A stretch of 28,303 nucleotides of DNA, taken from the IMG/VR virus record IMGVR_UViG_3300022542_000228, positions 1-28,303 of that record. One strand, written 5' to 3'. A program made the position numbers and the translations under genes. This stretch comes from a virus. The notes below the pieces were generated by a model. The model was not told the DNA's origin. It did no database searches and saw only the letters and a list, made by a program, of their open reading frames with translations. Below, one piece after another: positions 6,100-21,911 of this stretch; position 1 is the first letter of the stretch; each line of letters begins with the position of its first letter.

Positions 6100-6428
6100 G
6101 TTTCTATTCAATAAAAGTGCATATCAACAGCAATAATACTGGGCTGATAAATGCTGTTAAACATGTTATTCCAGCGGCAGACGATCCGATAGTAGACCCT
6201 CAAGAATACAATATACAAGAAGGTGTATTATCGCCATTTGATTATAATTTTTTTCTTGCACATATACAGTTTAAAGAAGAAATTGACAGAGATACAATTC
6301 TTGACAGTATAAAAGGTTTGAATGGCATTATCCACGCCTGTCTTCCCGGGTCACAAGTAATAAGTTATATTCATAAACACGTTGAAAATTTACCTTGTGA
6401 ACAAGAAACAATTCTGGAGAAAACCTGA
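6096..6428 (+). CDS. Hypothetical tail-operon protein
   Basis: This 110-aa protein begins MSFYSIKVHINSNNTGLINA and has no motif I recognise. It overlaps the kelch protein stop (ATGA) and its own stop overlaps the next ATG, so it belongs to the tail operon. Composition is mixed, with no membrane segment. A structural or assembly role is inferred from location only. Confidence 0.65.
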   Translation: MSFYSIKVHINSNNTGLINAVKHVIPAADDPIVDPQEYNIQEGVLSPFDYNFFLAHIQFKEEIDRDTILDSIKGLNGIIHACLPGSQVISYIHKHVENLPCEQETILEKT

Positions 6429-7165
6429 TGGCATTAACTGACGATTTAAGAATCTCCCTTCCTTTTAATGGCGACTGGCTTGATAAATCCGGTAACGGTA
6501 ATAATGTTACTCCATCCGGCATTACATTCGATACAGTAAATAAAAAGCTTGGCAGCGCATCTGCTTTTGGCGATGGGATTACAGATGACGGAGAGATAGC
6601 GGACAGTGGAACTCTTGTTGCTGATTATATAACTGTCGCTTCATGGATTAAATATACTACAAGTGGGGTAACAATTTCTTTTGAGCGCAGTTCGGGTGTT
6701 TTCGGTCCGAATGATTGGGATTTGCTTACGGCATCTGGATTTTTAAGATTTCAGCTGCATATCGGCGGCTCTAATCGAATTGTGACTAGCCCTTTGACAT
6801 ACAATGATGGAAATTGGCATTTGGCTTTATGTATGTATGATGGGGCGTTTTTAAGATTGTTCATAGATAATGTATATGTCGCTGAATTAGCGGCAGCACA
6901 CGGCGCGATAGGTGCTTCGAGCAATCCCTTAACCCTCTTTGCAAGAAAAGGGAAGGTTATTCCTTTCCCTGGGAATTTAGATAGTTTTTTAATGTGGGGA
7001 AGAGCTTTGAGTTTTGGAGGCGTTTCAGTAGGAAATCAGGCAACAGGAGAAGTTGCCGAAGTATCGAATGGCGGGACAGGGATTGAAATAATAGAGGATG
7101 GGATTATTCTTTCAAGAAGAGGACTTTGCCGGGGATTAAATAGAGGAATAGGGAGGGGATTTTAA
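6428..7165 (+). CDS. LamG/concanavalin-like lectin-fold structural protein
   Basis: This 245-aa protein has the LamG-like jelly-roll signature: DLRISLPFNGDWLDKSGNGN at residues about 5-25, ITVASWIKY near 67-75, NDGNWHLALCMYDGAFLRLFID near 125-147, and a final FPGNLDSFLMWGRALS near 178-195. The C-terminal 45 residues are Gly/Arg-rich and end RRGLCRGLNRGIGRGF, an odd basic tail. Such domains in virions usually bind carbohydrate or decorate tails. It probably acts at the tail tip or as a decoration protein; substrate is unknown. Confidence 0.75.
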   Translation: MALTDDLRISLPFNGDWLDKSGNGNNVTPSGITFDTVNKKLGSASAFGDGITDDGEIADSGTLVADYITVASWIKYTTSGVTISFERSSGVFGPNDWDLLTASGFLRFQLHIGGSNRIVTSPLTYNDGNWHLALCMYDGAFLRLFIDNVYVAELAAAHGAIGASSNPLTLFARKGKVIPFPGNLDSFLMWGRALSFGGVSVGNQATGEVAEVSNGGTGIEIIEDGIILSRRGLCRGLNRGIGRGF

Positions 7166-9094: not shown

Positions 9095-9450
9095 AAAAAG
9101 CATGGGTAGTTGATTCAAGCGAATACTTCAGGCGCTTTGAATCTGAATATATAGCAAAGGCAACGAAGTATTGTGTAGTTGAATCTCTGCCCCCTAAAGT
9201 GGCATTATCAAGATTTGCTGATGGTAAATATCCCGATGTATTGGTGATAGATATTCTACAGCCTAATATTAATGGCATTGACTTAGTTAATACCTTGAAG
9301 GATAAGCGGCCAGAAATGAATATAGTTGTTTGTTCATCAGAAGCAAAAAAGAATAGTAATAATTTGATAGGAATGACTTTAATTAATAAACCTATAATGT
9401 CTTTACCTTTATTTATGGAAACAATAAAAGATGTTATTGAAAATATCTAA
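9070..9450 (+). CDS. CheY-like response regulator receiver-domain protein
   Basis: This 126-aa protein fits a stand-alone receiver (REC) domain. AWVVDSSEY gives the first acidic residue at D15, although the usual second acidic residue is serine. PDVLVIDILQPNINGIDLV gives the phospho-acceptor D61 followed by the beta3-alpha3 loop. VVCSS supplies S89/S90 at the conserved Thr/Ser position, and INKPI supplies K107 before the cis-proline. There is no output domain. Start ATG 9070 overlaps the upstream gene; no later in-frame ATG would keep D15. Signalling partners are unknown, and a phage-encoded REC between structural and lysis genes is unusual. Confidence 0.75.
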   Translation: MAHQTDSIKKAWVVDSSEYFRRFESEYIAKATKYCVVESLPPKVALSRFADGKYPDVLVIDILQPNINGIDLVNTLKDKRPEMNIVVCSSEAKKNSNNLIGMTLINKPIMSLPLFMETIKDVIENI

Positions 9451-9459
9451 GGAGAAATT

Positions 9460-9675
9460 ATGGCAAAAGGCATTATAGATATAACTAAAATATTGATCCT
9501 TGAACCTACCAACAAGGAATTATGCGACTTACTAGACGAAAGGATTAAGGATTTAAAAAAGGCAATTAATGTTTCTAATACTGGCGGGAATAAATCAAGG
9601 CTACTGAATGATATTGAAACTTTATCATTTGAAATCAATGATAGATTACTAATTAAATCGGGAGAGAATAAATGA
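9460..9675 (+). CDS. Small hypothetical protein
   Basis: This 71-aa, largely helical, charged protein starts MAKGIIDITKILIL. A good RBS (AAGGAGAAATT) precedes the ATG, and the stop overlaps the endolysin ATG (AATGA), so it is probably co-translated with the lysis gene. No motif is recognised. Confidence 0.6.
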   Translation: MAKGIIDITKILILEPTNKELCDLLDERIKDLKKAINVSNTGGNKSRLLNDIETLSFEINDRLLIKSGENK

Positions 9676-13772: not shown

Positions 13773-14183
13773 ATGGCAGGCGTAAATAAGGTTATACTGG
13801 TTGGGAACTTGGGAAGAGATCCTGAAGTAAGATTTACTAAAGATGGGAAGGCTGTTTGTGATTTTCCCATAGCAGTAACAGAAAGAAAAGGCCAAGATGC
13901 AGAATGGTTTAATATCGTAGCCTGGGAGAAACTGGCTGAAGTGTGTGGGGAATATTTAAAGAAAGGCTCTCAAATTTATGTGGAAGGCAGGCAGAAAACA
14001 GAATCATGGGAGAAGGACGGAGAGAAGAAATATAAACAAACTATTGTCATCCTTAATATGACTATGTTAGGGCAAGGCCAAGGATCACCCTCTTCGCCCA
14101 GTAGCGGCGGCTCTGTTTCGCCTGGGACGCAAAGTTCAGGCAGTGGCAGCAACGATTTCGAAGACGACGATATCCCTTTCTGA
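13773..14183 (+). CDS. ssb: Single-stranded DNA-binding protein
   Basis: This 136-aa protein has the OB-fold SSB signature: MAGVNKVILVGNLGRDPEVR, then FPIAVTERKG, WFNIVAWEKLAEVCGEYLKK and VEGRQKTESW (residues 1-105). A Gly/Ser-rich linker leads to the acidic tip FEDDDIPF, used by SSBs to recruit partner proteins. It follows rad52-like by 12 bases with a good RBS (AAAGGAGAT). It is the last core gene before the repeat/ORF array. Confidence 0.95.
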   Translation: MAGVNKVILVGNLGRDPEVRFTKDGKAVCDFPIAVTERKGQDAEWFNIVAWEKLAEVCGEYLKKGSQIYVEGRQKTESWEKDGEKKYKQTIVILNMTMLGQGQGSPSSPSSGGSVSPGTQSSGSGSNDFEDDDIPF

Positions 14184-14237
14184 TATCCTTAATTTCATTG
14201 AGTCTATCTTAGGATAGATTCATTAAAGGGAAGGATA
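14184..14237 (+). repeat. Long imperfect hairpin at left edge of the array
   Basis: Outer arms TATCCTT(14184-14190)/AAGGATA(14231-14237), inner arms TGAGTCTATC(14199-14208)/GATAGATTCA(14213-14222, one G-T pair) with loop TTAG. There is no U run, so it is a poor terminator. It begins right after the ssb stop and its right arm runs into the first TAAC box, marking the array boundary. Confidence 0.6.
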
Positions 14238-14370
14238 ACGTTTAGCTCACCGGAGAGCGAACGCCGTGAGCGAGTCCAAGTTGAAAGGGAGGAAATGACG
14301 TGGTAGCTGAATTAGAACCAGACAATACTGAAGACAATGGAACGCAAAGGGTTGAGCAAGGGGTTAGGTT
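14233..14370 (+). repeat. attC-like site 1
   Basis: 5' box TAAC (14236-14239), spacer GTTTA, inner GCTCA-CC; 3' box GTTAG (14363-14367) whose reverse complement reads TAAC-CCCTT-GCTCAACC. One extra base is on the 3' arm. The RBS and GTG start of the first array ORF lie inside the site. Confidence 0.7.
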
Positions 14371-14524
14371 GCGTGCTGAAATTGATAGATTAATTATGGA
14401 CATTGACTGGCAAGCATCAAGACACCGTAGGGCGAGCGACCTAAAGAGGTATTTGATGACTGACTTGGAAGTGATTGAAGAGGGTGTAAAGAAACTTCGC
14501 AAGTTGATGAAGCAAGCAGCCTAA
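14300..14524 (+). CDS. Array ORF 1: repeat-encoded leader plus helical protein
   Basis: This 74-aa ORF starts at GTG 14300 inside site 1, behind AAGGGAGG (14285-14292). Its first 22 codons (VAELEPDNTEDNGTQ then RVEQGV) are repeat DNA and nearly match the leader of the ORF at 18288. It then crosses the GTTAG box in frame into a charged helical body ending VIEEGVKKLRKLMKQAA. The body matches no family I know. TAA is supplied by the TAAC of site 2. An alternative is that translation starts later in the body, but no RBS or ATG supports that. Confidence 0.6.
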   Translation: MVAELEPDNTEDNGTQRVEQGVRLRAEIDRLIMDIDWQASRHRRASDLKRYLMTDLEVIEEGVKKLRKLMKQAA

Positions 14525-14649
14525 CGACTTAAGCTCAGGGGCTTGCGAGTTAGTGAGTATCGTTTTGTTGATGCCAACAAGATGATAAAATCTGAGCGTA
14601 TCAAACAAACCGAGTGTTAGCAAGTCCCATTGCAGCGTTTGGTTAGTTT
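14519..14649 (+). repeat. attC-like site 2
   Basis: TAAC (14522-14525), spacer GACTTAA, GCT-CAGGGGCTTGC; 3' arm GCAAGTCCC(14620-14628) to GTTAG(14642-14646), whose reverse complement reads TAAC-CAAAC-GCTGCAATGGGACTTGC. The extra base is on the 3' arm. The centre is about 90 bp. Confidence 0.7.
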
Positions 14650-14677
14650 ATAACTTTATTACCATGCGAGGTTAACA

Positions 14678-15013
14678 ATGATTTTTGAAAAATGCATTGA
14701 AACGATTGAACCAGTAGAGCTTGACCTCCTAGACATTAAAAACACCTTTCTCGTTGCTAGAGATGTCAGAAATATAAGAGTTTATTTTGGTCAGTTTAAA
14801 ACAAAAAAAGGTTTTATGTGCGTAAGACTGTTGCCTGGTGGCGACAGACTAAATATTGAAATAGGTGATTTTGACTACAACTCACATGCCGCAAAACTTA
14901 ACATAGTGGAATTTGCAAAGTATTATAATTGCAACTGCCTAGAGGTCATCCGCAAAGATATTTTTATGGTTCAATACAATTCAGCAAGGGCCGCATTGGA
15001 TCAGATTAATTAA
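14678..15013 (+). CDS. Array ORF 2: hypothetical protein
   Basis: This 111-aa protein (MIFEKCIETIEPVELDLLDI...) is the longest in the array. It looks like a mixed alpha/beta domain, with IRVYFGQFKTKKGFMCVRLL and two cysteines in NCNCLEVI. The upstream GCGAGGTTAACA is a weak RBS. No family is recognised. It ends TAA three bases before the TAAC of site 3. Confidence 0.6.
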   Translation: MIFEKCIETIEPVELDLLDIKNTFLVARDVRNIRVYFGQFKTKKGFMCVRLLPGGDRLNIEIGDFDYNSHAAKLNIVEFAKYYNCNCLEVIRKDIFMVQYNSARAALDQIN

Positions 15014-15082
15014 ACTAACGAAAGCGTTAAATTGCCGACATAAACGGAGTGTTGGCGGTCATTTTCAACAATTGGTTAGGCG
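15013..15082 (+). repeat. attC-like site 3
   Basis: TAAC (15016-15019), spacer GAAAGC, GTT-AAATTGCCGAC; 3' GTTAGGC (15075-15081), reverse complement TAAC-CAATT-GTTGAAAATGACCGCC. Short site (about 70 bp), differing from site 5 at only two positions. Confidence 0.75.
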
Positions 15083-15099
15083 AAACAAAGGAGGTTAAT

Positions 15100-15312
15100 T
15101 TGAAAATTTGGATAGGAAAGAATGACGGAACAGACGTGGACGAGATTGAAAACCCCACCGAAAACCAAAAATTGATGTTGTCATGCCTTCATCCAGGCGC
15201 ACTCTATAGAACGGGCGATGATGAAAAAGGCACTGATAAGGATTATTGGGTGGAGAGAATAGAAATATATTTAAGGGACGACTTTATGACGGTGGTTGTG
15301 AAGGATGCCTAA
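15100..15312 (+). CDS. Array ORF 3: hypothetical acidic protein (TTG start)
   Basis: This 70-aa ORF begins with TTG 15100, placed 5 bases after a perfect AAAGGAGG (15087-15094): LKIWIGKNDGTDVDEIENPT.... A longer reading upstream would start inside site 3 without an RBS. The end, WVERIEIYLRDDFMTVVVKD, looks like a beta hairpin. Its TAA is part of the TAAC of site 4. No family is recognised. Confidence 0.6.
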   Translation: MKIWIGKNDGTDVDEIENPTENQKLMLSCLHPGALYRTGDDEKGTDKDYWVERIEIYLRDDFMTVVVKDA

Positions 15313-15403
15313 CGATTAAGTTCAGTGGAATTTGCCAATGGACAAACAATCAAATAGCCGACCAGACTGCGTGGTAAATTTCCTTTGAAACGCTTGGTTA
15401 TGC
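15307..15403 (+). repeat. attC-like site 4
   Basis: GCCTAAC (15307-15313), spacer GATTAA, GTT-CAGTGGAATTT; 3' GTTATGC (15397-15403), reverse complement TAAC-CAAGC-GTTTCAAAGGAAATTT. The outer boxes are textbook RYYYAAC/GTTRRRY-like. Confidence 0.75.
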
Positions 15404-15428
15404 ATGACTTTTATTGAGGAGAAAACCC

Positions 15429-15617
15429 ATGGGTATAACTAGAAAGCAAGCAATCATTATTTTAGACAGATCGTCAAATTATGCAGACGAAGCATGGACT
15501 GATCTTTGTGATGACCAAGGCCTTTATGATGAAAGTGGGGATACATGGGCGACATTCGCTGACATTATGAAAGCTTTGGGCGTGACCGAGGAAGAATTAA
15601 GAGAGGCGAATGCATAA
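15429..15617 (+). CDS. Array ORF 4: hypothetical acidic protein
   Basis: This 62-aa ORF (MGITRKQAIIILDRSSNYAD...) is behind GAGGAGAAAACCC. It is mainly helical and acidic, ending KALGVTEEELREANA. The TAA is part of the TAAC of site 5. No family is recognised. Confidence 0.6.
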   Translation: MGITRKQAIIILDRSSNYADEAWTDLCDDQGLYDESGDTWATFADIMKALGVTEEELREANA

Positions 15618-15680
15618 CGTAAGCGTTAAATTGCCGACATAAACGAAGTGTTGGCGGTCATTTTCAACAATTGGTTAGGC
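15612..15680 (+). repeat. attC-like site 5
   Basis: GCATAAC (15612-15618), spacer GTAAGC, GTT-AAATTGCCGAC; 3' GTTAGGC (15674-15680). A near-identical copy of site 3 about 600 bases away; the flanking ORFs are unrelated. Confidence 0.75.
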
Positions 15681-15698
15681 GAACCCAAGGAGATTAAA

Positions 15699-15905
15699 AT
15701 GAAACAAAAATTAGAATTAGATGTAAGTAACCTTTCTGACTGGATGAATAATAACTGGAATCTGTATTCTTCTCAAATGTATAAAGATAAATTACTTCGT
15801 TTGTGGATAAATGGCAATGGGATATATAGAGTTAATTATGGTGAAGATGTTATTTATGAGGGCAGCCAGATGACTCATGCCATTGCAGCATGGGAATCAG
15901 CCTAA
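15699..15905 (+). CDS. Array ORF 5: hypothetical protein
   Basis: This 68-aa ORF (MKQKLELDVSNLSDWMNNNW...) is behind AAGGAGATTAAA. The second half (LLRLWINGNGIYRVNYGEDV) suggests a small beta sheet followed by a helix. The TAA is part of the TAAC of site 6. No family is recognised. Confidence 0.6.
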   Translation: MKQKLELDVSNLSDWMNNNWNLYSSQMYKDKLLRLWINGNGIYRVNYGEDVIYEGSQMTHAIAAWESA

Positions 15906-15990
15906 CGACTTAAGCTAAAGGGCTGGCGAAATCAAGTTGACTAAAAATAGAATGCGCTATTGCCAGTCCTTTTTAAGCGCATGGTTAGAG
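15900..15990 (+). repeat. attC-like site 6
   Basis: GCCTAAC (15900-15906), spacer GACTTAA, GCT-AAAGGGCTGGC; 3' GTTAGAG (15984-15990), reverse complement TAAC-CATGC-GCTTAAAAAGGACTGGC. The extra base is on the 3' arm. Confidence 0.75.
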
Positions 15991-16009
15991 GAGCGCATAA
16001 ATAAAAATG

Positions 16010-16058
16010 CACATTGTGTAAAATAGGTGTTGACACGTTGTGTATATCTTGATATGCT
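16010..16058 (+). promoter_or_regulatory. Cassette-internal promoter with paired operator-like 10-mers
   Basis: TTGACA (16030-16035), a 17-bp spacer, TATGCT (16053-16058). The 10-mer CACRTTGTGT occurs at 16010-16019 and 16034-16043, 24 bp apart and flanking or overlapping the -35. It is the only clear promoter I see inside the array. Confidence 0.7.
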
Positions 16059-16101
16059 TAGTTCCAAGAGGTAAGGAAAACTTAAAACTAGGGGAAGTAA
16101 A

Positions 16102-16281
16102 ATGGCTAAAATGATTGAAGATATGAGCAAGGAAGAGCTTCAAAACGAGATTCTTTTTAATGAGGATGGTTTGTACGATCAATTCAATGAAGTTTTATTT
16201 TTGAAAGGTGCGATATCGCATGAAGAATTATTGTCTACTACCACAAAGTGGATTAAAGAGAATAATGAGGCTATCATATGA
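16102..16281 (+). CDS. Array ORF 6a: hypothetical protein of the promoter-bearing unit
   Basis: This 59-aa ORF (MAKMIEDMSKEELQNEILFN...) is acidic and helical, and first after the internal promoter. It overlaps the next ATG (ATGA). A three-gene unit with its own promoter and an HTH gene resembles toxin-antitoxin cassettes in layout, but neither small protein matches a toxin family I know. Confidence 0.55.
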   Translation: MAKMIEDMSKEELQNEILFNEDGLYDQFNEVLFLKGAISHEELLSTTTKWIKENNEAII

Positions 16282-16442
16282 ACTTGAAAGAGCTTCAAAA
16301 CTTTGTTAATGAGGCAGTAAAACATTACGGGGGAGATGCGCCAGTGATCTTGTTTGACGAGCAGGGGGATAAATTAGACTGGCCTTTAGAATTGAGCCGA
16401 TGGCATTCCTCGGACGACAAAGAGCCGCTTACTTTTTCCTAA
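16278..16442 (+). CDS. Array ORF 6b: small hypothetical protein
   Basis: This 54-aa ORF (MNLKELQNFVNEAVKHYGGD...) is coupled to 6a by ATGA overlap. It has an acidic APVILFDEQGDKLDWPLELS stretch predicted as beta strands. It ends TAA without an attC-like box, so 6a, 6b and 6c share one unit. Confidence 0.55.
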   Translation: MNLKELQNFVNEAVKHYGGDAPVILFDEQGDKLDWPLELSRWHSSDDKEPLTFS

Positions 16443-16478
16443 ACATAAAACCAAGTTATTTTTAATAAGGAAAGGCAA

Positions 16479-16667
16479 ATGACAGCACAACAACTAAAAG
16501 AGGCCCGGCAAAAGATGGGACTTTCCGTAAAGGATGCCGCCCGTATCTTCAAGGTGACGTATTCAGCTTGGGGGAAGTGGGAACGTGGCGAGAGGGCAAT
16601 ATCGGGTCTTTTGGTTGCAGCGTTGTCACTTTATGAGAACTTACCGAAGGGCAAGAAGCCCCTCTAA
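16479..16667 (+). CDS. Array ORF 6c: helix-turn-helix regulator
   Basis: This 62-aa single HTH protein has MTAQQLKEARQKMGLSVKDA then ARIFKVTYSAWGKWERGER, an XRE-like pattern (LKEAR..MGLS..DAA.iF.V....W.kWErGeR) seen in small phage and plasmid regulators. The RBS AAGGAAAGGCAA precedes the ATG. It could bind the paired CACRTTGTGT motifs in the promoter of its own unit (inference). The TAA is part of the TAAC of site 7. Confidence 0.75.
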   Translation: MTAQQLKEARQKMGLSVKDAARIFKVTYSAWGKWERGERAISGLLVAALSLYENLPKGKKPL

Positions 16668-16800
16668 CGTTAAAAGCTAACCGGCAAGCAACGAGAGTTG
16701 CGTAGTCCAAATTGAAAGGGAGGGGATATGATTGAAGATGTATATAGCATAATAGCAGAGCCGGTTAGTGGAACGCAAGGGGTTGAGCGAAGTGTTAGCA
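16662..16800 (+). repeat. attC-like site 7
   Basis: TAAC (16665-16668), spacer GTTAAAA, GCT-AACCGGC; 3' arm GCCGGTTAG(16760-16768), GGTTGAGC(16780-16787), GTTAGC(16794-16799), reverse complement TAAC-ACTTC-GCTCAACC. An ORF start with AAAGGGAGG lies inside. Confidence 0.7.
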
Positions 16801-16985
16801 AGCCCTTCCCCGAAGAGGAGTATAAGCGTTGGCTGGAACTTAGAGAGAAACATGATGAATTATCAATATCACATAAAATTGCAGGGGAAAGATTCAACTT
16901 TGAGGCTGCAACAAAGTTTTTTGATGAGGCTGAGGAAATAGCCGTTGAAATGAAAAAAATATATGATGGAATAATGGCTTGCTAA
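16728..16985 (+). CDS. Array ORF 7: repeat-encoded leader plus coiled-coil protein
   Basis: This 85-aa ORF starts at the ATG behind AAAGGGAGGGGAT inside site 7. Residues 1-24 are read from the repeat and end SGTQGVERSVSKP, closely matching the leader ends at 14300 and 18288 (GTQ.VE.GV). The body, EEEYKRWLELREKHDELSIS onward, is a helical coiled coil. The crossover GTT is a Val codon as in those ORFs. The TAA is part of the TAAC of site 8. No family is recognised. Confidence 0.6.
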   Translation: MIEDVYSIIAEPVSGTQGVERSVSKPFPEEEYKRWLELREKHDELSISHKIAGERFNFEAATKFFDEAEEIAVEMKKIYDGIMAC

Positions 16986-17153
16986 CGGTGAGCTAACCGG
17001 AAATTAACACATTGTGGCGGGGGGCAGTTTGAGAGCATATTTGTTTGACCACGGTGGAATGACAACCACCTACCTCACAGGCGAACATGCCTGTTCCCCG
17101 CCTTCCTTAATTTAAAAACCGTGTTCATTTTCCGGTTAATTGGAGGGTTATAT
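16980..17153 (+). repeat. attC-like site 8 (large)
   Basis: TAAC (16983-16986), spacer GGTGA, GCTAACCGGAAATTAACAC; 3' arm reads GTGTTCATTTTCCGGTTAAT to GTTATAT (17147-17153). GGCGGGG(17016-17022) pairs with CCCCGCC(17096-17102). Inner hairpins include ACAGGC/GCCTGT. The RBS GGAGGG and the next ATG overlap its 3' box. Confidence 0.7.
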
Positions 17154-17370
17154 GGCGTATGAAGAGCCAGGAACAGACGAATGGGTTCAGCCTGTAGTTG
17201 AAGGCTACAAGATGGCGTGTTGCGATTGCGGATTGGTGCATGAAATGGATTTTAGAATTGAGAATGGTCGGATCCAATTTCGAGTGCGTAGAAACAATAG
17301 AGCAACGGCAGGGAAGCGGGTTAAAATGGGAATGCGAAAAAATAAAGGAGGAGGCTGGAGCTATGTGTAA
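17152..17370 (+). CDS. Array ORF 8a: small putative zinc protein found in phages
   Basis: This 72-aa protein (MAYEEPGTDEWVQPVVEGYK...) has ACCDCGLVHEMDFRI, a C-C-x-C-x3-H cluster followed by a basic stretch (FRVRRNNRATAGKRVKMGMR). Proteins with YKMACCDCGLVH occur in many tailed phages as hypothetical proteins; function is not established. Its ATG overlaps site 8's 3' box and its stop overlaps the next gene. Confidence 0.65.
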   Translation: MAYEEPGTDEWVQPVVEGYKMACCDCGLVHEMDFRIENGRIQFRVRRNNRATAGKRVKMGMRKNKGGGWSYV

Positions 17371-17611
17371 ATGGAATGACACGATTGTTACAACAACGTC
17401 AAGCGGCAAAAGAGTTGATGTGGATAGGTGCTTGGAGCCATTAGTTAACGCCTTGAATGCAGCAGGCATAGAAACTATAGCGTGTTGTTGTGGCCATCAG
17501 AAACGCCCAGGTAATATAGCGTTAAAGGATGGTAGAGAGTTGATTATTGCACCAGACTTTGAAACCGGCAGAGAAGTTGATAGGGCGTTTCCTACCCCTA
17601 TAAATGAATAG
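17363..17611 (+). CDS. Array ORF 8b: MCKW/CCGH phage protein
   Basis: This 82-aa protein starts at the ATG behind AAAGGAGGAG: MCKWNDTIVTTTSSGKRVDV, then DRCLEPLVNALNAAGIET and ACCCGHQKRPGNIALKDGRE. Small phage proteins with M-C-x-W-x-DT, VD.C..PLV.AL...GI.T and CCGHG motifs are common and uncharacterised; the cysteines and histidine suggest metal binding. It overlaps 8a by 8 bases and is the second gene of a two-gene unit. It ends TAG five bases before TAAC. Confidence 0.7.
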   Translation: MCKWNDTIVTTTSSGKRVDVDRCLEPLVNALNAAGIETIACCCGHQKRPGNIALKDGRELIIAPDFETGREVDRAFPTPINE

Positions 17612-17700
17612 CCATATAACGAGTGAGATCAGCGGGGCCGGGACCCTGCTGACTAGGACGAAAGGAGCCCAACGGGCTCCGCTGCATTGATTTGTTATGG
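17612..17700 (+). repeat. attC-like site 9
   Basis: TAAC (17617-17620), spacer GAGTGA, GATC-AGCGGGGCC; 3' GTTATGG (17694-17700), reverse complement TAAC-AAATC-AATGCAGCGGAGCCC. The inner hairpin GGAGCCC-AAC-GGGCTCC (17664-17680) is perfect. Confidence 0.7.
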
Positions 17701-17730
17701 TGCATAACTTTTAAACGGAGGGATTAAAAA

Positions 17731-17907
17731 ATGACTAAAGGAAATAAGAGACTGCATAGTGAAAGCCAGAAAGGTTATAAAAAAAGATTGCGCATGGAGC
17801 AGAAGATAATAAAAGGGTGGCTGCGTGGCCGGTGGATCTGGAGGACTAATCAGAGGGGAACTTATGTAAGGGCCGTGCATGGCGAAATAGGAAGCGCTGC
17901 AAATTAA
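17731..17907 (+). CDS. Array ORF 9: small very basic protein
   Basis: This 58-aa ORF (MTKGNKRLHSESQKGYKKRL...) is rich in Lys, Arg and Trp (KGWLRGRWIWRTNQRG), suggesting nucleic-acid binding. The RBS is ACGGAGGGATTAAAAA. It ends TAA ten bases before the next TAAC. No family is recognised. Confidence 0.55.
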   Translation: MTKGNKRLHSESQKGYKKRLRMEQKIIKGWLRGRWIWRTNQRGTYVRAVHGEIGSAAN

Positions 17908-17913
17908 GCTGCG

Positions 17914-17971
17914 CCATAACAGCCAAGATCAGCAGCCGCGTTAGCGGTCAGCTGGAGCGCCATGGTTAGGC
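17914..17971 (+). repeat. attC-like site 10 (short)
   Basis: TAAC (17917-17920), spacer AGCCA, AGATC-AGCAGCCGC; 3' GTTAGGC (17965-17971), reverse complement TAAC-CATGG-CGCTCCAGCTGACCGC. Only 58 bp; it shares its outer arms with site 19. Confidence 0.7.
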
Positions 17972-17988
17972 AAATTTAAGGAGGCATT

Positions 17989-18249
17989 ATGGGCGACATG
18001 GGCGAGATATTCAAAGACATGATAGAGCATAGTAAAAAGAAGAGAGCAAAGAACAGAGAAGGATCTGCTCAATATTTATGGGAACAAGGCATAAGCTTTG
18101 ACACGATGAACAATGGAGTGCATCTGATAGTCAAAGGAGGCAAGGGGATATTTGCTGACTTTTGGCCGGGAACAGGTAAGTGGAAAATAAGAGGACATAA
18201 TATTGAAGGCAGGGGAGTTAAGAGCTTGGCTAAAAAGCTACTTGCATAA
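17989..18249 (+). CDS. Array ORF 10: hypothetical protein
   Basis: This 86-aa protein (MGDMGEIFKDMIEHSKKKRA...) has a basic helical N-terminus and a beta-rich end (HLIVKGGKGIFADFWPGTGK). The AAGGAGG RBS sits 4 bases before the start. The TAA is part of the TAAC of site 11. Small proteins with a similar NNGVHLIV...ADFWPGTGKW region occur in phages; function unknown. Confidence 0.65.
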   Translation: MGDMGEIFKDMIEHSKKKRAKNREGSAQYLWEQGISFDTMNNGVHLIVKGGKGIFADFWPGTGKWKIRGHNIEGRGVKSLAKKLLA

Positions 18250-18357
18250 CGATTGAATTAACTGGCTTGTGAGCCAAAGGAGAGAACATGGTAGCTGAAT
18301 TGGAGCCAGACAATACTGAAGACAATGGAACGCAAGGGGTTGAGCGAGGGGTTATAA
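18244..18357 (+). repeat. attC-like site 11
   Basis: GCATAAC (18244-18250), spacer GATTGA, ATT-AACTGG; 3' GTTATAA (18351-18357), reverse complement TAAC-CCCTC-GCTCAACCCC. Its 66-bp 3' half (18289-18354) differs from that of site 1 at four positions. Confidence 0.65.
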
Positions 18358-18521
18358 AGCCCTGCCCGTTCTGTAGAGCTAGTGCCGAAACAACAACAAT
18401 GACATTTGGTGACAGCATGACAGAATATTACCGAGTTGAATGTGAAGAGGGAGATGCCTTGGATTGTTGGGATGATACAGAAGAGGAAGCTATAGCAACA
18501 TGGAACAAGAGGGCGGTATAA
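18288..18521 (+). CDS. Array ORF 11: repeat leader fused to Lar-like zinc ribbon
   Basis: This 77-aa ORF starts inside site 11 behind AAAGGAGAGAAC. Residues 1-22 (MVAELEPDNTEDNGTQGVER plus GV) are repeat-encoded. The body begins at KPCPFC and ends EEEAIATWNKRAV, the hallmark ends of Lar/restriction-alleviation-like small zinc ribbons (CPFC...C..C....EAI..WN.R), here with the second knuckle reduced (VECEEGDALDC). An anti-restriction role follows from the family name only. The TAA is part of the TAAC of site 12. Confidence 0.7.
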   Translation: MVAELEPDNTEDNGTQGVERGVIKPCPFCRASAETTTMTFGDSMTEYYRVECEEGDALDCWDDTEEEAIATWNKRAV

Positions 18522-18598
18522 CCTTAGAACTAGCCGGACGGAACCAAAGGTGACGTTCCAAGTTTGTTGATGGCTGGAAACCTATAACAAGGTGATGC
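18516..18598 (+). repeat. attC-like site 12 (degenerate)
   Basis: TAAC (18519-18522), then CTTAGAACTAGCCGG. The inner hairpin GGAAC(18540-18544)/GTTCC(18555-18559) is clear. The 3' box is GTGATGC (18592-18598) instead of GTTATGC, and AAGGTGATG now acts as the next ORF's RBS. Confidence 0.45.
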
Positions 18599-18599
18599 A

Positions 18600-18815
18600 A
18601 TGGATAAGGATAAAGTTGAAAATGGCAAGAGGCTCAGTGGTGGGTTGTGCAGATTGCCCCGCGAAGCCATAGAAGTTGAGGATGATTGGCAATTAGTACG
18701 AGACCATGTTGAGGATGAGAATTGGGCGGAAGTGCCTCATGCTTTAGCAAGGATGAGAGACAAAATGCTTAAATTAGAGGCTTATGTGTTTGCTAAAAAA
18801 GTATTATCTGCATAA
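18600..18815 (+). CDS. Array ORF 12: hypothetical protein
   Basis: This 71-aa ORF (MDKDKVENGKRLSGGLCRLP...) uses AAGGTGATGCA as its RBS. The C-terminal part (HALARMRDKMLKLEAYVFAK) is helical. The TAA is part of the TAAC of site 13. No family is recognised. Confidence 0.55.
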   Translation: MDKDKVENGKRLSGGLCRLPREAIEVEDDWQLVRDHVEDENWAEVPHALARMRDKMLKLEAYVFAKKVLSA

Positions 18816-18878
18816 CTGCAAGCTCAGCGGCAGACATAAGCGAAGCGTTGGCGGTCATTTTTGAATAGTGGGTTATGC
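18810..18878 (+). repeat. attC-like site 13
   Basis: GCATAAC (18810-18816), spacer TGCAA, GCTCAGCGGC; 3' GTTATGC (18872-18878), reverse complement TAAC-CCACT-ATTCAAAAATGACCGCC. The centre (GACATAAGCGAAGCGTTGGC) is close to that of sites 3 and 5. Confidence 0.7.
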
Positions 18879-18893
18879 CTAAAGGAGATGATT

Positions 18894-19085
18894 ATGACAA
18901 GCAAAGAAAGAGAAGAGATGAGGATGAGGATGCAACAAGGCATGAGGGCATTGAGTGAAGAAGAGATAGCGGAGAGGCAAAGAAAAGCTGCATATGGAAT
19001 GAGGCCCATGACACCTGAAGAGATTGCTGAAAGACAGGGAGATGGTTTACAGAATATTTGGGGCAAGATGCCGGGCGAGGCATAA
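18894..19085 (+). CDS. Array ORF 13: protein with a duplicated EEIAERQ motif
   Basis: This 63-aa ORF starts at ATG 18894, 6 bases after AAAGGAG. It contains two copies of GMR..(T/S).EEIAERQ (GMRALSEEEIAERQ and GMRPMTPEEIAERQ), 22 residues apart, and a Met/Arg-rich start. It is probably all helical. The TAA is part of the TAAC of site 14. No family is recognised. Confidence 0.6.
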   Translation: MTSKEREEMRMRMQQGMRALSEEEIAERQRKAAYGMRPMTPEEIAERQGDGLQNIWGKMPGEA

Positions 19086-19137
19086 CGATTGAAATCAGCG
19101 GCGTGTATGCACGTCCGGCTGCATTGGTGGGTTAAAT
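19080..19137 (+). repeat. attC-like site 14 (short)
   Basis: GCATAAC (19080-19086), spacer GATTGA, AATC-AGCGGCGTG; 3' GTTAAAT (19131-19137), reverse complement TAAC-CCACC-AATGCAGCCGGACGTG. This 58-bp site is easily folded by eye. Confidence 0.75.
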
Positions 19138-19149
19138 GAAGGGGGTATC

Positions 19150-19374
19150 ATGGTAGAAAAAAAATATAGACAAGTAGGTATGACGGAAGTGACTGCGTAT
19201 ATATGTGATAAGTGTGGGCGCAGATATGATGATGATATAGAAATGCAGGAATTTCATCTAATCAGATTTAATGGCGGCTATGGTTCAGTTTTTGGTGATG
19301 GGACTATGGTGGAATGCGATGTTTGTCAACATTGTCTAAAGGCAATGATTGGGGATATAGCCCGCACCATTTAA
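19150..19374 (+). CDS. Array ORF 14: zinc-ribbon protein
   Basis: This 74-aa protein has two CxxC knuckles, YICDKCGRRYDDD (residues about 17-29) and ECDVCQHCLKAM (about 54-65), in a treble-clef or ribbon arrangement similar to small proteins that bind Zn and contact DNA or RNA polymerase. The RBS is GAAGGGGGTATC. The TAA is part of the TAAC of site 15. Role unknown. Confidence 0.7.
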   Translation: MVEKKYRQVGMTEVTAYICDKCGRRYDDDIEMQEFHLIRFNGGYGSVFGDGTMVECDVCQHCLKAMIGDIARTI

Positions 19375-19436
19375 CGAAAACGCTAAACCGCCGAAGGAAC
19401 GAAGTGACAGAGGTCGCTTTGAGCAAAGGGTTAGCT
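19369..19436 (+). repeat. attC-like site 15
   Basis: TAAC (19372-19375), spacer GAAAAC, GCT-AAACCGCC; 3' GTTAGCT (19430-19436), reverse complement TAAC-CCTTT-GCTCAAAGCGACC. It is the clearest example of the single extra base on the 3' arm, after GCT. Confidence 0.8.
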
Positions 19437-19463
19437 AGAACAAAACAATTAAAGGAGTAAAAG

Positions 19464-19676
19464 ATGGGTGTATTAGCGTGTGATAGAAACGGTTGTGACA
19501 ACATAATGTGCGACAGACATTCGCAGGAGCATGGCTATATTTGCTATGAATGCTTTGAGGAATTAGTAAGCTCTGGCCCAACCACAGATATAGAAAGCTT
19601 CATGCAAAGCAGGAGGAAACCTGAAGCGAAAGATGAGGCCATGGCAAGATACAATGTTGTATTTGAATCTAGCTAA
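19464..19676 (+). CDS. Array ORF 15: cysteine-rich zinc-finger-like protein
   Basis: This 70-aa ORF (MGVLACDRNGCDNIMCDRHS...) has CDRNGCDNIMCDRHS then YICYECFEEL: six Cys and two His in a pattern like small RING or treble-clef domains. The RBS is AAAGGAGTAAAAG. The TAA is part of the TAAC of site 16. Role unknown. Confidence 0.65.
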   Translation: MGVLACDRNGCDNIMCDRHSQEHGYICYECFEELVSSGPTTDIESFMQSRRKPEAKDEAMARYNVVFESS

Positions 19677-19792
19677 CGATTTAGCTCATGCGCGGCTTGA
19701 GACTTAACAAAGGAGGAAATGACTGATGAAAGAAGATGCACAAAATGAGGTGAAAGAGCTAACTGCCGTCGAAATGCAGCGTGGGGTTATGC
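19671..19792 (+). repeat. attC-like site 16
   Basis: TAAC (19674-19677), spacer GATTTA, GCT-CATGCGCGGC; 3' GTTATGC (19786-19792), reverse complement TAAC-CCCAC-GCTGCATTTCGACGGC. The 3' box lies inside the next ORF. Confidence 0.65.
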
Positions 19793-19944
19793 GACAACTT
19801 CTCACGAAAGAAATTGAATCGTTGGACAGAAGCATCGAAAGATTTGAAAAGGTAGAGAATCTTGATGCCGCAGCCCATGTCAGTGCCAAACGAGATGGGG
19901 TATGCTGGGCGCTATTTGTGCTTAATGTGAGACTTGGCACATAA
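19726..19944 (+). CDS. Array ORF 16: repeat leader plus helical protein
   Basis: This 72-aa ORF starts behind AAAGGAGG (19709-19716) inside site 16. Its first 20 codons (MKEDAQNEVKELTAVEMQRG) are repeat-encoded, and GTT ATG of the 3' box is read as Val-Met. The body (RQLLTKEIESLDRSIERFEK) is a coiled coil. The TAA is part of the TAAC of site 17. No family is recognised. Confidence 0.6.
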   Translation: MKEDAQNEVKELTAVEMQRGVMRQLLTKEIESLDRSIERFEKVENLDAAAHVSAKRDGVCWALFVLNVRLGT

Positions 19945-20071
19945 CAATTAAACTAAGGAGCTTGAGGATTATGGAAGATAAATTATCAAAGATGAGTGAA
20001 ATGGCTCATAGATTAGTAAGATCACAAAACGAAACCACTGGCAACAAGTCTGCTTCAGTGAGGGGTTGGGC
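19939..20071 (+). repeat. attC-like site 17 (tentative)
   Basis: TAAC (19942-19945), spacer AATTAA, ACT-AAGGAGCTTG; candidate 3' box GTTGGGC (20065-20071), reverse complement CAAC-CCCTC-ACTGAAGCAGACTTG. The inner boxes match well with the extra base on the 3' arm, but the 3' outer box is altered. Confidence 0.45.
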
Positions 20072-20213
20072 GGAGTTTCGAGAGAAAGCAAGAAAATGGT
20101 ATGTTGATTATTTCGCGCCTTATGCCTTCTTCTTAGGTTGTTATGTGGGAGCAGTTTGTATGTTGATTTATATAGCTTATGCTACTAAATTATGGACGGA
20201 ATGCTTGAACTAA
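19971..20213 (+). CDS. Array ORF 17: small membrane protein
   Basis: This 80-aa ORF (MEDKLSKMSEMAHRLVRSQN...) has one hydrophobic helix at residues about 49-71 (APYAFFLGCYVGAVCMLIYI). The N-terminal 30 codons overlap tentative site 17. The RBS AAGGAG..GAGG precedes the ATG. No family is recognised. Confidence 0.6.
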   Translation: MEDKLSKMSEMAHRLVRSQNETTGNKSASVRGWAEFREKARKWYVDYFAPYAFFLGCYVGAVCMLIYIAYATKLWTECLN

Positions 20214-20221
20214 GAAAAGCC

Positions 20222-20427
20222 GCCCAACGATTTAGCTCAGTGGCAGAGCCACTAAAGGAGATGGAAAGATGAAAAACGCTGTTATTAAATGTGATAAATG
20301 CGGGTCTATGGCTTACATGGTTCCCGTGAATATAACGTGCATAAGAGGCAATTGTAGAGGAACAATGAGACCCCTTAAAAACAACAAAGCACCCGTGGCG
20401 AATGTCCTTTGCAGCGACGGGTTAGAA
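20222..20427 (+). repeat. attC-like site 18 (tentative, long)
   Basis: CAAC (20225-20228), spacer GATTTA, GCT-CAGTGGCAGAGCCAC; candidate 3' box GTTAGAA (20421-20427), reverse complement TAAC-CCGTC-GCTGCAAAGGACATTCGCCAC. The 5' box is mutated (CAAC). A local hairpin GTGGC-AGA-GCCAC is perfect. Confidence 0.4.
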
Positions 20428-20586
20428 GGCTTGGGCTATTTAAAGGCACATATAAGGATTAAAATAGAGGAAGCTAAATGGTCAAGCAATGAAGCTAAAA
20501 AGGACAATAACAGCAACGGACATATAGCATGGAATCATACAAAAATGGCTTACGAAGATATACTTAGAAAACTAGAAGCCTTATAA
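20269..20586 (+). CDS. Array ORF 18: zinc-ribbon N-terminus plus helical body
   Basis: This 105-aa ORF begins MKNAVIKCDKCGSMAYMVPV and has NITCIRGNCRGTMRPL, giving CxxC and CxxxxC knuckles in residues 8-35. Residues about 52-105 (EGLGYLKAHIRIKIEEAKWS...) are helical, and repeat site 18 may end between the two parts. The RBS is AAAGGAGATGGAAAG. The TAA is part of the TAAC of site 19. Confidence 0.65.
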   Translation: MKNAVIKCDKCGSMAYMVPVNITCIRGNCRGTMRPLKNNKAPVANVLCSDGLEGLGYLKAHIRIKIEEAKWSSNEAKKDNNSNGHIAWNHTKMAYEDILRKLEAL

Positions 20587-20656
20587 CAGCCAAGCTCAGC
20601 AGCCGCATGAGCAAACGGAGTGAGCGTTTGCGGTCGGTTGGAGCGTTTGGTTATGT
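20581..20656 (+). repeat. attC-like site 19
   Basis: TAAC (20584-20587), spacer AGCCAA, GCTC-AGCAGCCGC; 3' GTTATGT (20650-20656), reverse complement TAAC-CAAAC-GCTCCAACCGACCGC. The inner stem GCAAACG/CGTTTGC extends it (20611-20632). Confidence 0.75.
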
Positions 20657-20680
20657 GAAACTTTAATTAAGGAGGCCAAA

Positions 20681-20917
20681 ATGAAAAAAGTAATAATTGA
20701 GAAGCAGGATAAGGACACAATTAAGCAAGATGATATATATGAAACTTCGCCGATATTTGCAAAGAAAGGAGGCGAGTTTTGTGGAATGATAGTTAAAGAA
20801 GAAGAAAAAGGCTGGATATTGAGGCTTGGTGGTTCAGGGGGGTGTTGTGGTTGGCACAAAACGCGCCGGGAATTGTTGGAAAGTGCAAAGACTTATGGAT
20901 ATGAGTTTTTCACATAA
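20681..20917 (+). CDS. Array ORF 19: hypothetical protein, last of the array
   Basis: This 78-aa ORF (MKKVIIEKQDKDTIKQDDIY...) has a beta-rich centre and a GGSGGCCGWHKTRRELLESA segment. The RBS AAGGAGGCCAAA is strong. The TAA opens a last TAAC box, after which no good 3' partner is found. No family is recognised. Confidence 0.6.
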   Translation: MKKVIIEKQDKDTIKQDDIYETSPIFAKKGGEFCGMIVKEEEKGWILRLGGSGGCCGWHKTRRELLESAKTYGYEFFT

Positions 20918-20948
20918 CCTTCTGATATACGGAACACCGGTGATGTAA
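20912..20948 (+). repeat. Degenerate attC-like half site 20 (right array edge)
   Basis: TAAC (20915-20918) is followed by CTTCTGATATACGG and CCGGTGATG, resembling degenerate site 12 (TAACCTTAG...GGTGATG). No convincing GTTA arm is seen. It marks the right edge of the array. Confidence 0.3.
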
Positions 20949-21272
20949 ATGAATGAAAAGCGGTCAAAATGGCGTAAAAACCAAACAGAGAAGCGTAAAA
21001 GGTTGATTTTAGAGCGTCCTCCACCTGATTATCCTGATACGATAGACCATAGGGATTATTGGGATGAAATCGTTTTGAGGCGACATTCACCGGAGGGAGT
21101 GAGGGAAACCACAATAACTCTATTCATGTGTTCAGATAAAGTTGATTCTCATTATGTAATGAGGGATGGGTATATGAGACTCCACAATAAGCGGCCTAAA
21201 CGTATAGGGTCTTACAAAGTGGGTGAATTGGTAGGTAAACTATTAGGGAGGCGAGGGAGGTTTGATGAGTGA
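20949..21272 (+). CDS. Hypothetical basic protein
   Basis: This 107-aa, Arg/Lys-rich protein (MNEKRSKWRKNQTEKRKRLI...) has no recognised motif. It overlaps the VRR-NUC start by 8 bases and follows the array, so it belongs to the downstream core block. GGTGATGTAA is a modest RBS. Confidence 0.6.
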   Translation: MNEKRSKWRKNQTEKRKRLILERPPPDYPDTIDHRDYWDEIVLRRHSPEGVRETTITLFMCSDKVDSHYVMRDGYMRLHNKRPKRIGSYKVGELVGKLLGRRGRFDE

Positions 21273-21829: not shown

Positions 21830-21882
21830 TATGTGGATAGGGCTGTACACCCGAAAAGCAGAATCCGACTGCCTGCCACATA
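21830..21882 (+). ncRNA. Three-way-junction leader RNA of HNH gene 1
   Basis: Stem 1 TATGTGG(21830-21836)/CCACATA(21876-21882). Within it, GGG(21840-21842)-7 nt-CCC(21850-21852), and GCAG(21858-21861)-7 nt-CTGC(21869-21872). The leader ends about 30 bases before the gene start. No known riboswitch or ribozyme consensus is recognised. Confidence 0.4.
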
Positions 21883-21911
21883 CAATTCTCGGAGCATCTA
21901 CGGAGGATGTC

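Follow-up and report, generated by a model that had tools for sequence, protein, structure and literature searches.

We found that the interval between ssb and a small conserved phage gene in the IMG/VR virus record IMGVR_UViG_3300022542_000228 is very probably the cassette array of a phage-borne integron in which the genes run opposite to the polarity of their attC sites, and in which members lacking an integron integrase gene (intI) would exchange cassettes in trans. The window, meaning the whole stretch of DNA analysed, is a 28,303-base record which its gene content identifies as a tailed phage. Between ssb (13773–14183) and the small conserved gene (20949–21272) the array holds approximately 22 small open reading frames (ORFs), all on the plus strand, together with 19 attC-like sites with TAAC ... 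GTTA outer boxes and a half-site at its right end. An initial reading made from the sequence alone (the sequence-only reading) had described such repeats and one-directional small ORFs in this interval, and both were found again. It had counted about 20 attC-like sites; 19 of these stand as attC-like, and the right-end element (20912–20950) is instead a putative attI-like boundary.

The R' box that opens an integron cassette and the R'' box that closes it are complementary to each other because the two meet in the excised circle. The units in the window have this hallmark and are integron cassettes. Boxes flanking one ORF unit (R' upstream, R'' downstream) matched in 90 of 114 comparisons at positions 5–10, beyond the 4-base core; 20,000 permutations averaged 38.5 matches and never exceeded 63. 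Boxes belonging to the same hairpin matched in only 35 of 108. The longest same-ORF pairings ran up to 11 bp, for example GTTATGTGAAA / TTTCACATAAC. Some right boxes (e.g. those of sites S8 and S17) were picked among alternatives partly by their same-ORF complementarity; we also built automatic chains of linked box pairs, which are independent of the hand-picked right boxes. The chain in the window array contained 17 linked pairs, versus at most 6 in shuffled sequence. Chains of 3–17 cassette pairs were found across nine phage arrays and were longer than in every shuffle with the exception of L099, where the chain of 4 tied its longest shuffle, and the summed pair scores exceeded all shuffles in all nine arrays. 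The known integrons in phages p16 and M16-3 gave chains of 9 and 12 in a similar test. An early and simpler pair scanner which ignored polarity returned few sites and noise-like results. L056, L078 and other loci with ssb matches and moderate chain counts were read or screened, and no arrays were found in them.

The genes in the array run against attC polarity. For each site, the two strands were scored against the canonical layout, R''-spacer-L''(stem, extrahelical base, stem)...L'-spacer-R', and this score was calibrated on 21 known attCs from class 1 integrons, Vibrio anguillarum phage p16 and Shewanella phage M16-3. All 21 known attCs favoured the gene direction (mean +2.42). In the window, 17 of the 19 sites favoured the strand opposite the ORFs (mean −2.30), and across the nine phage arrays 70 of 72 sites were reversed, fitting the canonical layout better on the antisense strand. 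When compared to sites with shuffled interiors, the L''/extrahelical base/L' layout of the window sites gave z = 8.0 for the reversed strand and z = 1.7 for the ORF direction, with known attCs giving z = 10.9. The phage arrays thus depart from the usual orientation, in which ORFs point toward their attC, an orientation that is typical of integrons and not strictly defining. The single unpaired base noted in the sequence-only reading is present, in the 3' arm on the plus strand, but the reversed polarity that it implies went unrecognised there. Because polarity is reversed, each cassette has the form C-attC-(RBS)-ORF-TAA, with RBS the ribosome-binding site, and is cut at TAA/C (the slash marks the crossover), with the insertion end of the array at the right.

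Relatives were gathered by searches with ssb, the right-hand gene, the repeated attC motif and the phage integrase. Related arrays were found in G002 (L004/L088), which has overlapping ends and is hence circular, and in L096, L097, L098, L099 and L103, while the array in G001 was near-empty. Cassettes vary as whole units between these relatives, with junctions at the core site. In L096 and L097 the aligned segments are 94–99.9% identical, apart from one diverged stretch of 291 bp at 85%, and a single attI-proximal cassette, joined at TAA/C on either side, distinguishes the two: a common cassette ending GAGGTTGCGGCTTAA is followed by differing last cassettes, after which the sequences rejoin at TAA/CACTGTGATATACGG. 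A 330-bp cassette, from its C to its TAA, is identical at 330 of 330 positions in G002, which has no intI, and G015, which does, with unrelated flanks on both sides. Of the segments that arrays have in common, 58% have their start no more than 2 nt from YAAC, against a background of 4.9%, and 39% have their end at GTTR or YAAC, against a background of 9.9%. The sequence-only reading had held that a constant ORF order without breakpoints at the boxes would speak against an integron; the related phages show the opposite, with variable cassettes and breakpoints at the boxes. The tail of one L097 cassette recurs at the start of the contig (1–112 and 2970–3081), each copy lying before a different site, which means that an ORF moves without the attC that follows it. 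The L097 contig begins inside this repeated tail, suggesting either that the population holds variant arrays or that the tail is present in two copies. Some high-scoring segment pairs (HSPs) share an attC without the ORF or an ORF without the attC, and exchange at the other box therefore occurs as well, perhaps via homologous recombination.

The array also has conserved boundaries. Its right end, TAA/C followed by TGTAATATNYGGA and CCGGTGATG, is common to the window, G002 and L096–L099 and is succeeded in each by the same small gene, while the left flank, AAGGATAA followed by C across the crossover, is common to the window, L098 and L103. We call the half-site at 20912–20950 putatively attI-like from its position and conservation. 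The sequence-only reading had proposed an integrase-less array, and such an array is what the 28-kb window shows; with its conserved attI-like end it looks like a platform and not a stray array. An attempt to establish homology of the two attI types, that of the intI-less phages and that beside the phage intI, gave no secure result.

In four viral contigs representing three distinct phages (G015, L108/L109 and L110), the array is immediately followed by an IntI gene that shares the strand of the cassette ORFs. From reading of their ORFs, G015 is a Mu-like phage with sheath and baseplate genes, and L108/L109 carries terminase, portal and ClpP-type genes. Judged by their sequences, the G015, L108 and L110 proteins are integron integrases: they score 317, 308 and 315 bits respectively against TIGR02249 (curated cut-off 265), the best solved-structure match of the G015 protein is 2a3v, the Vibrio integron integrase (1.5e−56), the catalytic R, K, HxxR, H and Y are all kept, and the IntI-specific extra domain is present in divergent form. 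These phage IntIs form their own clade (support 100/100) with 78–84% mutual identity, and are at most 43% identical to the plasmid, class 1, class 3, Vibrio, Shewanella and Rctr41k IntIs in the compared set. The phage intI points away from attI, as is usual, and only the genes within cassettes are inverted. Searches of the window, G001–G003 and G011–G014 for tyrosine recombinases of the Phage_integrase family found none, and no relatives of the G015 IntI were found in these or in the L103 record. The search for intI in the rest of the window phage that the sequence-only reading had proposed thus detected none in the 28-kb fragment. A separate observation concerns Virus Rctr41k (L112, KX853513.1), in which the gene at 4680–5678 annotated as "XerD integrase-like" is an integron integrase by its TIGR02249 score of 383 bits. 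We do not claim a cassette array beside it, as its chain of 6 fell within the shuffled range (maximum 7), with a summed score slightly above.

We propose that an integron integrase would bind the folded ORF-bearing strand, which is the attC bottom strand, and that recombination at the TAA/C crossover would add or remove cassettes beside the conserved attI-like site at the right end. Transcription would enter from the ssb side, with the cassette genes probably expressed from the phage operon. In the window phage and the circular G002, IntI would be supplied in trans, most plausibly from G015/L108/L110-type phages that infect or reside in the same cell, or from a host integron. We infer supply in trans because an identical cassette is present in the intI-less G002 and the intI-bearing G015, and because G002 is circular and has no detected recombinase. 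IntI would catalyse the exchange and work in trans on the window array, with cargo that may consist mostly of counter-defence and host-takeover genes.

The strongest competitor to this proposal accepts the cassettes as real but assigns their recombination to the integron of a bacterial host, with the phage intI being incidental. We regard this as the less probable source of the recombinase, though host IntI as its supplier is a real alternative: most phages of the group have no intI, and in the study by Qi et al. (PMC9892861) the class 1 integrase IntI1 recombined 5 of 6 tested phage attCs. Against it stand the identical cassette shared with an intI-bearing phage and, as a weak test, the absence of any exact copy of one attC motif from 84,980 prokaryote species genomes. 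Scans of genome contigs with the attC motif and with Erf found no relative in either. The sequence-only reading had suggested a host IntI or a related unknown recombinase; besides a host IntI, that of related phages is a likely recombinase.

That the turnover results from homologous recombination between repeated attCs, and is not site-specific, appears unlikely. Erf and Gam genes flank the array, and many HSPs cover an attC common to different ORFs; however, the junctions are exactly at TAA/C despite unrelated attCs on either side (L096/L097 and G002/G015), which counts against it because homologous recombination would leave crossovers inside the shared repeats. Chance capture of a fragment of a bacterial chromosomal integron, with the array as passive cargo, seems less probable still. 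Such captures are documented in Vibrio anguillarum prophages (PMC9892861), and the window record has no detected intI, but several phages, from different samples, use this slot with its left flank and attI-like right end, cassettes have passed from one phage to another, three distinct phages have an intI of their own, and turnover confined to the interval between the two boundaries has been seen in part. An explanation without recombination, in which phage morons are simply separated by ordinary hairpins such as terminators or elements for translation coupling, can be set aside almost entirely: the ORFs do all run one way, with ribosome-binding sites after the repeats and several starts within them, but complementarity joins the boxes around an ORF and not those within one hairpin, terminator-like sites are not enriched, and related phages hold different cassettes between the same boundaries.

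Several points nevertheless weigh against a phage-borne integron with reversed genes and trans supply of IntI. Two of the 19 window sites do not have the reversed layout, S12 is degenerate, and folding energies alone are unremarkable at some sites. The attI-like site of the intI-less phages is only weakly similar to the attI next to the phage intI, and the IntI-specific insertion in the phage IntIs is 4 residues shorter. The HSPs covering only an attC or only an ORF indicate that homologous recombination contributes too, and recombination itself is read indirectly, from sequence comparison. Finally, the window is a 28-kb fragment and intI could lie elsewhere in its genome.

The attCs of the window are all assigned to the minus strand. 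S1 (14233–14369), the last attC of the array in canonical polarity, holds the ribosome-binding site and start of ORF 14300, and is followed by S2 (14519–14648), S3 (15013–15081), S4 (15307–15403) and S5 (15612–15680), with S3 and S5 sharing 92% identity in a similarity which begins at TAAC. S6 (15900–15990) is upstream of a three-gene cassette ending in a helix-turn-helix (HTH) gene. Next come S7 (16662–16800), with the start of ORF 16728 inside, S8 (16980–17153), S9 (17614–17700) and S10 (17914–17971), the last with 91% identity to a site in L097. There is no clear polarity at S11 (18244–18357), which contains the start of ORF 18288, or at S13 (18810–18878), and between these S12 (18516–18598) has the degenerate right box GTGATGC. 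These are followed by S14 (19080–19137), S15 (19369–19436), S16 (19671–19792), which has the start of ORF 19726 inside, and S17 (19939–20071), which also contains an ORF start and whose right box GTTGGGCGG pairs with CCGCCCAAC at 20220–20228. S18 (20222–20427) is of a long type which encodes a Cys-rich N-terminus, with related long sites in L098, L103, G002 and G015, and S19 (20581–20656) is the attI-proximal attC.

In 15 of the 19 units the TAA of the TAAC box is the stop codon of the last ORF, and at six sites (S1, S7, S11, S16, S17 and S18) the start codon of the next ORF is within the site, with the frame crossing GTTA. ORFs 14300 and 18288 have a common N-terminus (MVAELEPDNTEDNGTQ.VE.GV) and diverge from the GTTA box on. 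In attCs of approximately 190 bp, a Cys-rich N-terminal segment (..KAQTAPVAEVPCSAGL) is encoded by the inner part of the site and fused to differing downstream ORFs; these attCs were located in L098 (6964–7163, 7791–7977 and 8947–9140), L004, L103, L106 and at the position of S18 in the window. With start codons and the coding sequence of N-termini inside them, such attCs suggest that fusion proteins are a further product that cassettes can make.

Most cassette proteins in the window match no family. One ORF (18288–18521, plus strand) is Lar-like and anti-restriction by its matches to PF14354 (32.0 bits, above the cut-off of 28.6) and PHROG 599. The three-gene cassette (15984–16668, plus strand) has a sigma70-like promoter at 16030–16058 and an HTH gene (16479–16667) in last place whose product is weakly MqsA/Aca2-like, and a related cassette was found in G002. 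Multi-gene cassettes ending in an HTH gene recur, in the window (15984–16668), in G002 (L004 13588–14196) and partly in G015 (L106 1–84). A multi-gene operon with its own promoter and a terminal HTH gene is a layout found among toxin–antitoxin and anti-CRISPR operons. Promoter-like sites overall showed no enrichment in the array region. The cargo of the relatives includes cytosine and N6/N4-type DNA methyltransferases and a protein with a PAPS-reductase domain. These matches make counter-defence a plausible cargo theme, one that Qi et al. (PMC9892861) likewise suggest for phage clusters of attC lacking an integrase (CALINs).

In the window, the order of genes leading to the array is tape measure (left edge), endolysin, holin, Gam, Erf and ssb (plus strand; PHROG 44, 1.2e−47), and that after the array is a VRR-NUC gene, an HNH gene, DnaD- and DnaC-like loaders and the large terminase (right edge). 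The conserved left flank ending AAGGATAA before the C of the crossover (14200–14238, plus strand) also occurs in L098 and L103 and in similar form in G002. The attI-like half-site, TAAC..TGATATACGGAACACCGGTGATG (minus strand), is conserved in six phages including the window directly after the TAA/C crossover, and the small gene beside it (plus strand), a neighbour of VRR-NUC, has 75–79% identity in L096–L099. An Rfam scan of the window gave no attC-type match; its sole match, outside the array, was int-alpA RNA (RF02996) at 21830–21895, the start of the HNH gene, with 36.0 bits against a gathering score of 35.8, which is unexpected in a phage without a detected integrase. Near ssb, a tRNA-like sequence (GGTGGCGGAATAG..AAATCCCTGCCCTCAC) with a long insert was seen in L103 (~2168–2350), L098 (~6204–6387) and L002 (~9340–9540). 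The early region of L099 encodes a low-complexity protein of Gly-Tyr/Gly-Ser/Gly-Asp repeats (GYGSGYGD...; 6246–6542).

We compared the arrays to known integrons. Complete integrons, such as class 1 and the Vibrio superintegron, share with them a TIGR02249 IntI (that of G015, L108/L109 and L110), R''/L''/L'/R' attCs with extrahelical bases, R'/R'' complementarity per cassette and an intI transcribed away from attI, and their attI has a putative counterpart in the attI-like site. However, their ORFs point away from attI while those of the phage arrays all face it, and in the phage arrays the attC is upstream of its ORF, in some cases holding the start codon and first codons. The "reverse" or "unusual" integrons of Treponema denticola and others (PMC3607928, PMC6557892) likewise have intI and cassette genes on one strand, but there it is intI that is inverted, reading toward attI, with cassettes of normal polarity, whereas in the phage arrays intI is normal and the cassette genes are inverted. 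Among phages, Qi et al. 2023 (PMC9892861) report three complete integrons, one In0 and 17 CALINs, and attCs of phages that IntI1 is able to use. Like the window, in which no intI was detected, the CALINs described there are attC arrays with small cassette genes and no intI, some with DNA methyltransferases, and they were recombined by IntI1 in tests; unlike the family here, they are sporadic arrays of at least two sites in 17 phages. Reversed polarity, a fixed-locus attI platform, cassette swaps between phages or a phage IntI clade are not described in the text of that paper as far as it was read. Shewanella phage M16-3 and V. anguillarum phages p16 and p42 are also phage genomes with intI and attC arrays (p42: intI only), and their IntIs resemble the integron IntIs of the host genera (PMC9892861). 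Their attC polarity is canonical in L091/L092, and the IntIs of G015, L108 and L110 are at most 43% identical to theirs. In a literature search that did not extend to preprints or to most subscription papers, neither this phage IntI clade nor fixed-locus attI platforms nor uniformly reversed arrays were found described, and the priority of the reversed phage platform is not certain.

The prevailing view of integrons is of platforms by which bacteria capture genes and which phages carry only now and then. We lean slightly towards a broader reading, in which phages would have evolved an integron system of their own: its IntIs would form a dedicated clade, its attI platforms would be conserved at fixed loci across unrelated virion types, and its cassettes, of reverse polarity, would be adapted to the operons of phages. 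Many phages would then carry the platform only and rely on co-infecting intI-bearing phages, and methyltransferase and anti-restriction cassettes would circulate in a phage pool separate from bacterial integrons. The reversed genes decouple attC polarity from gene polarity, which are usually seen together, and this makes it testable whether normal polarity is needed for recombination or only for expression from Pc. Were a phage family to combine a fixed attI-like platform and whole-unit swaps with relatives encoding a distinct IntI, integrons would also be a means of innovation for phages, and the one-step gain and loss of counter-defence genes would be explained.

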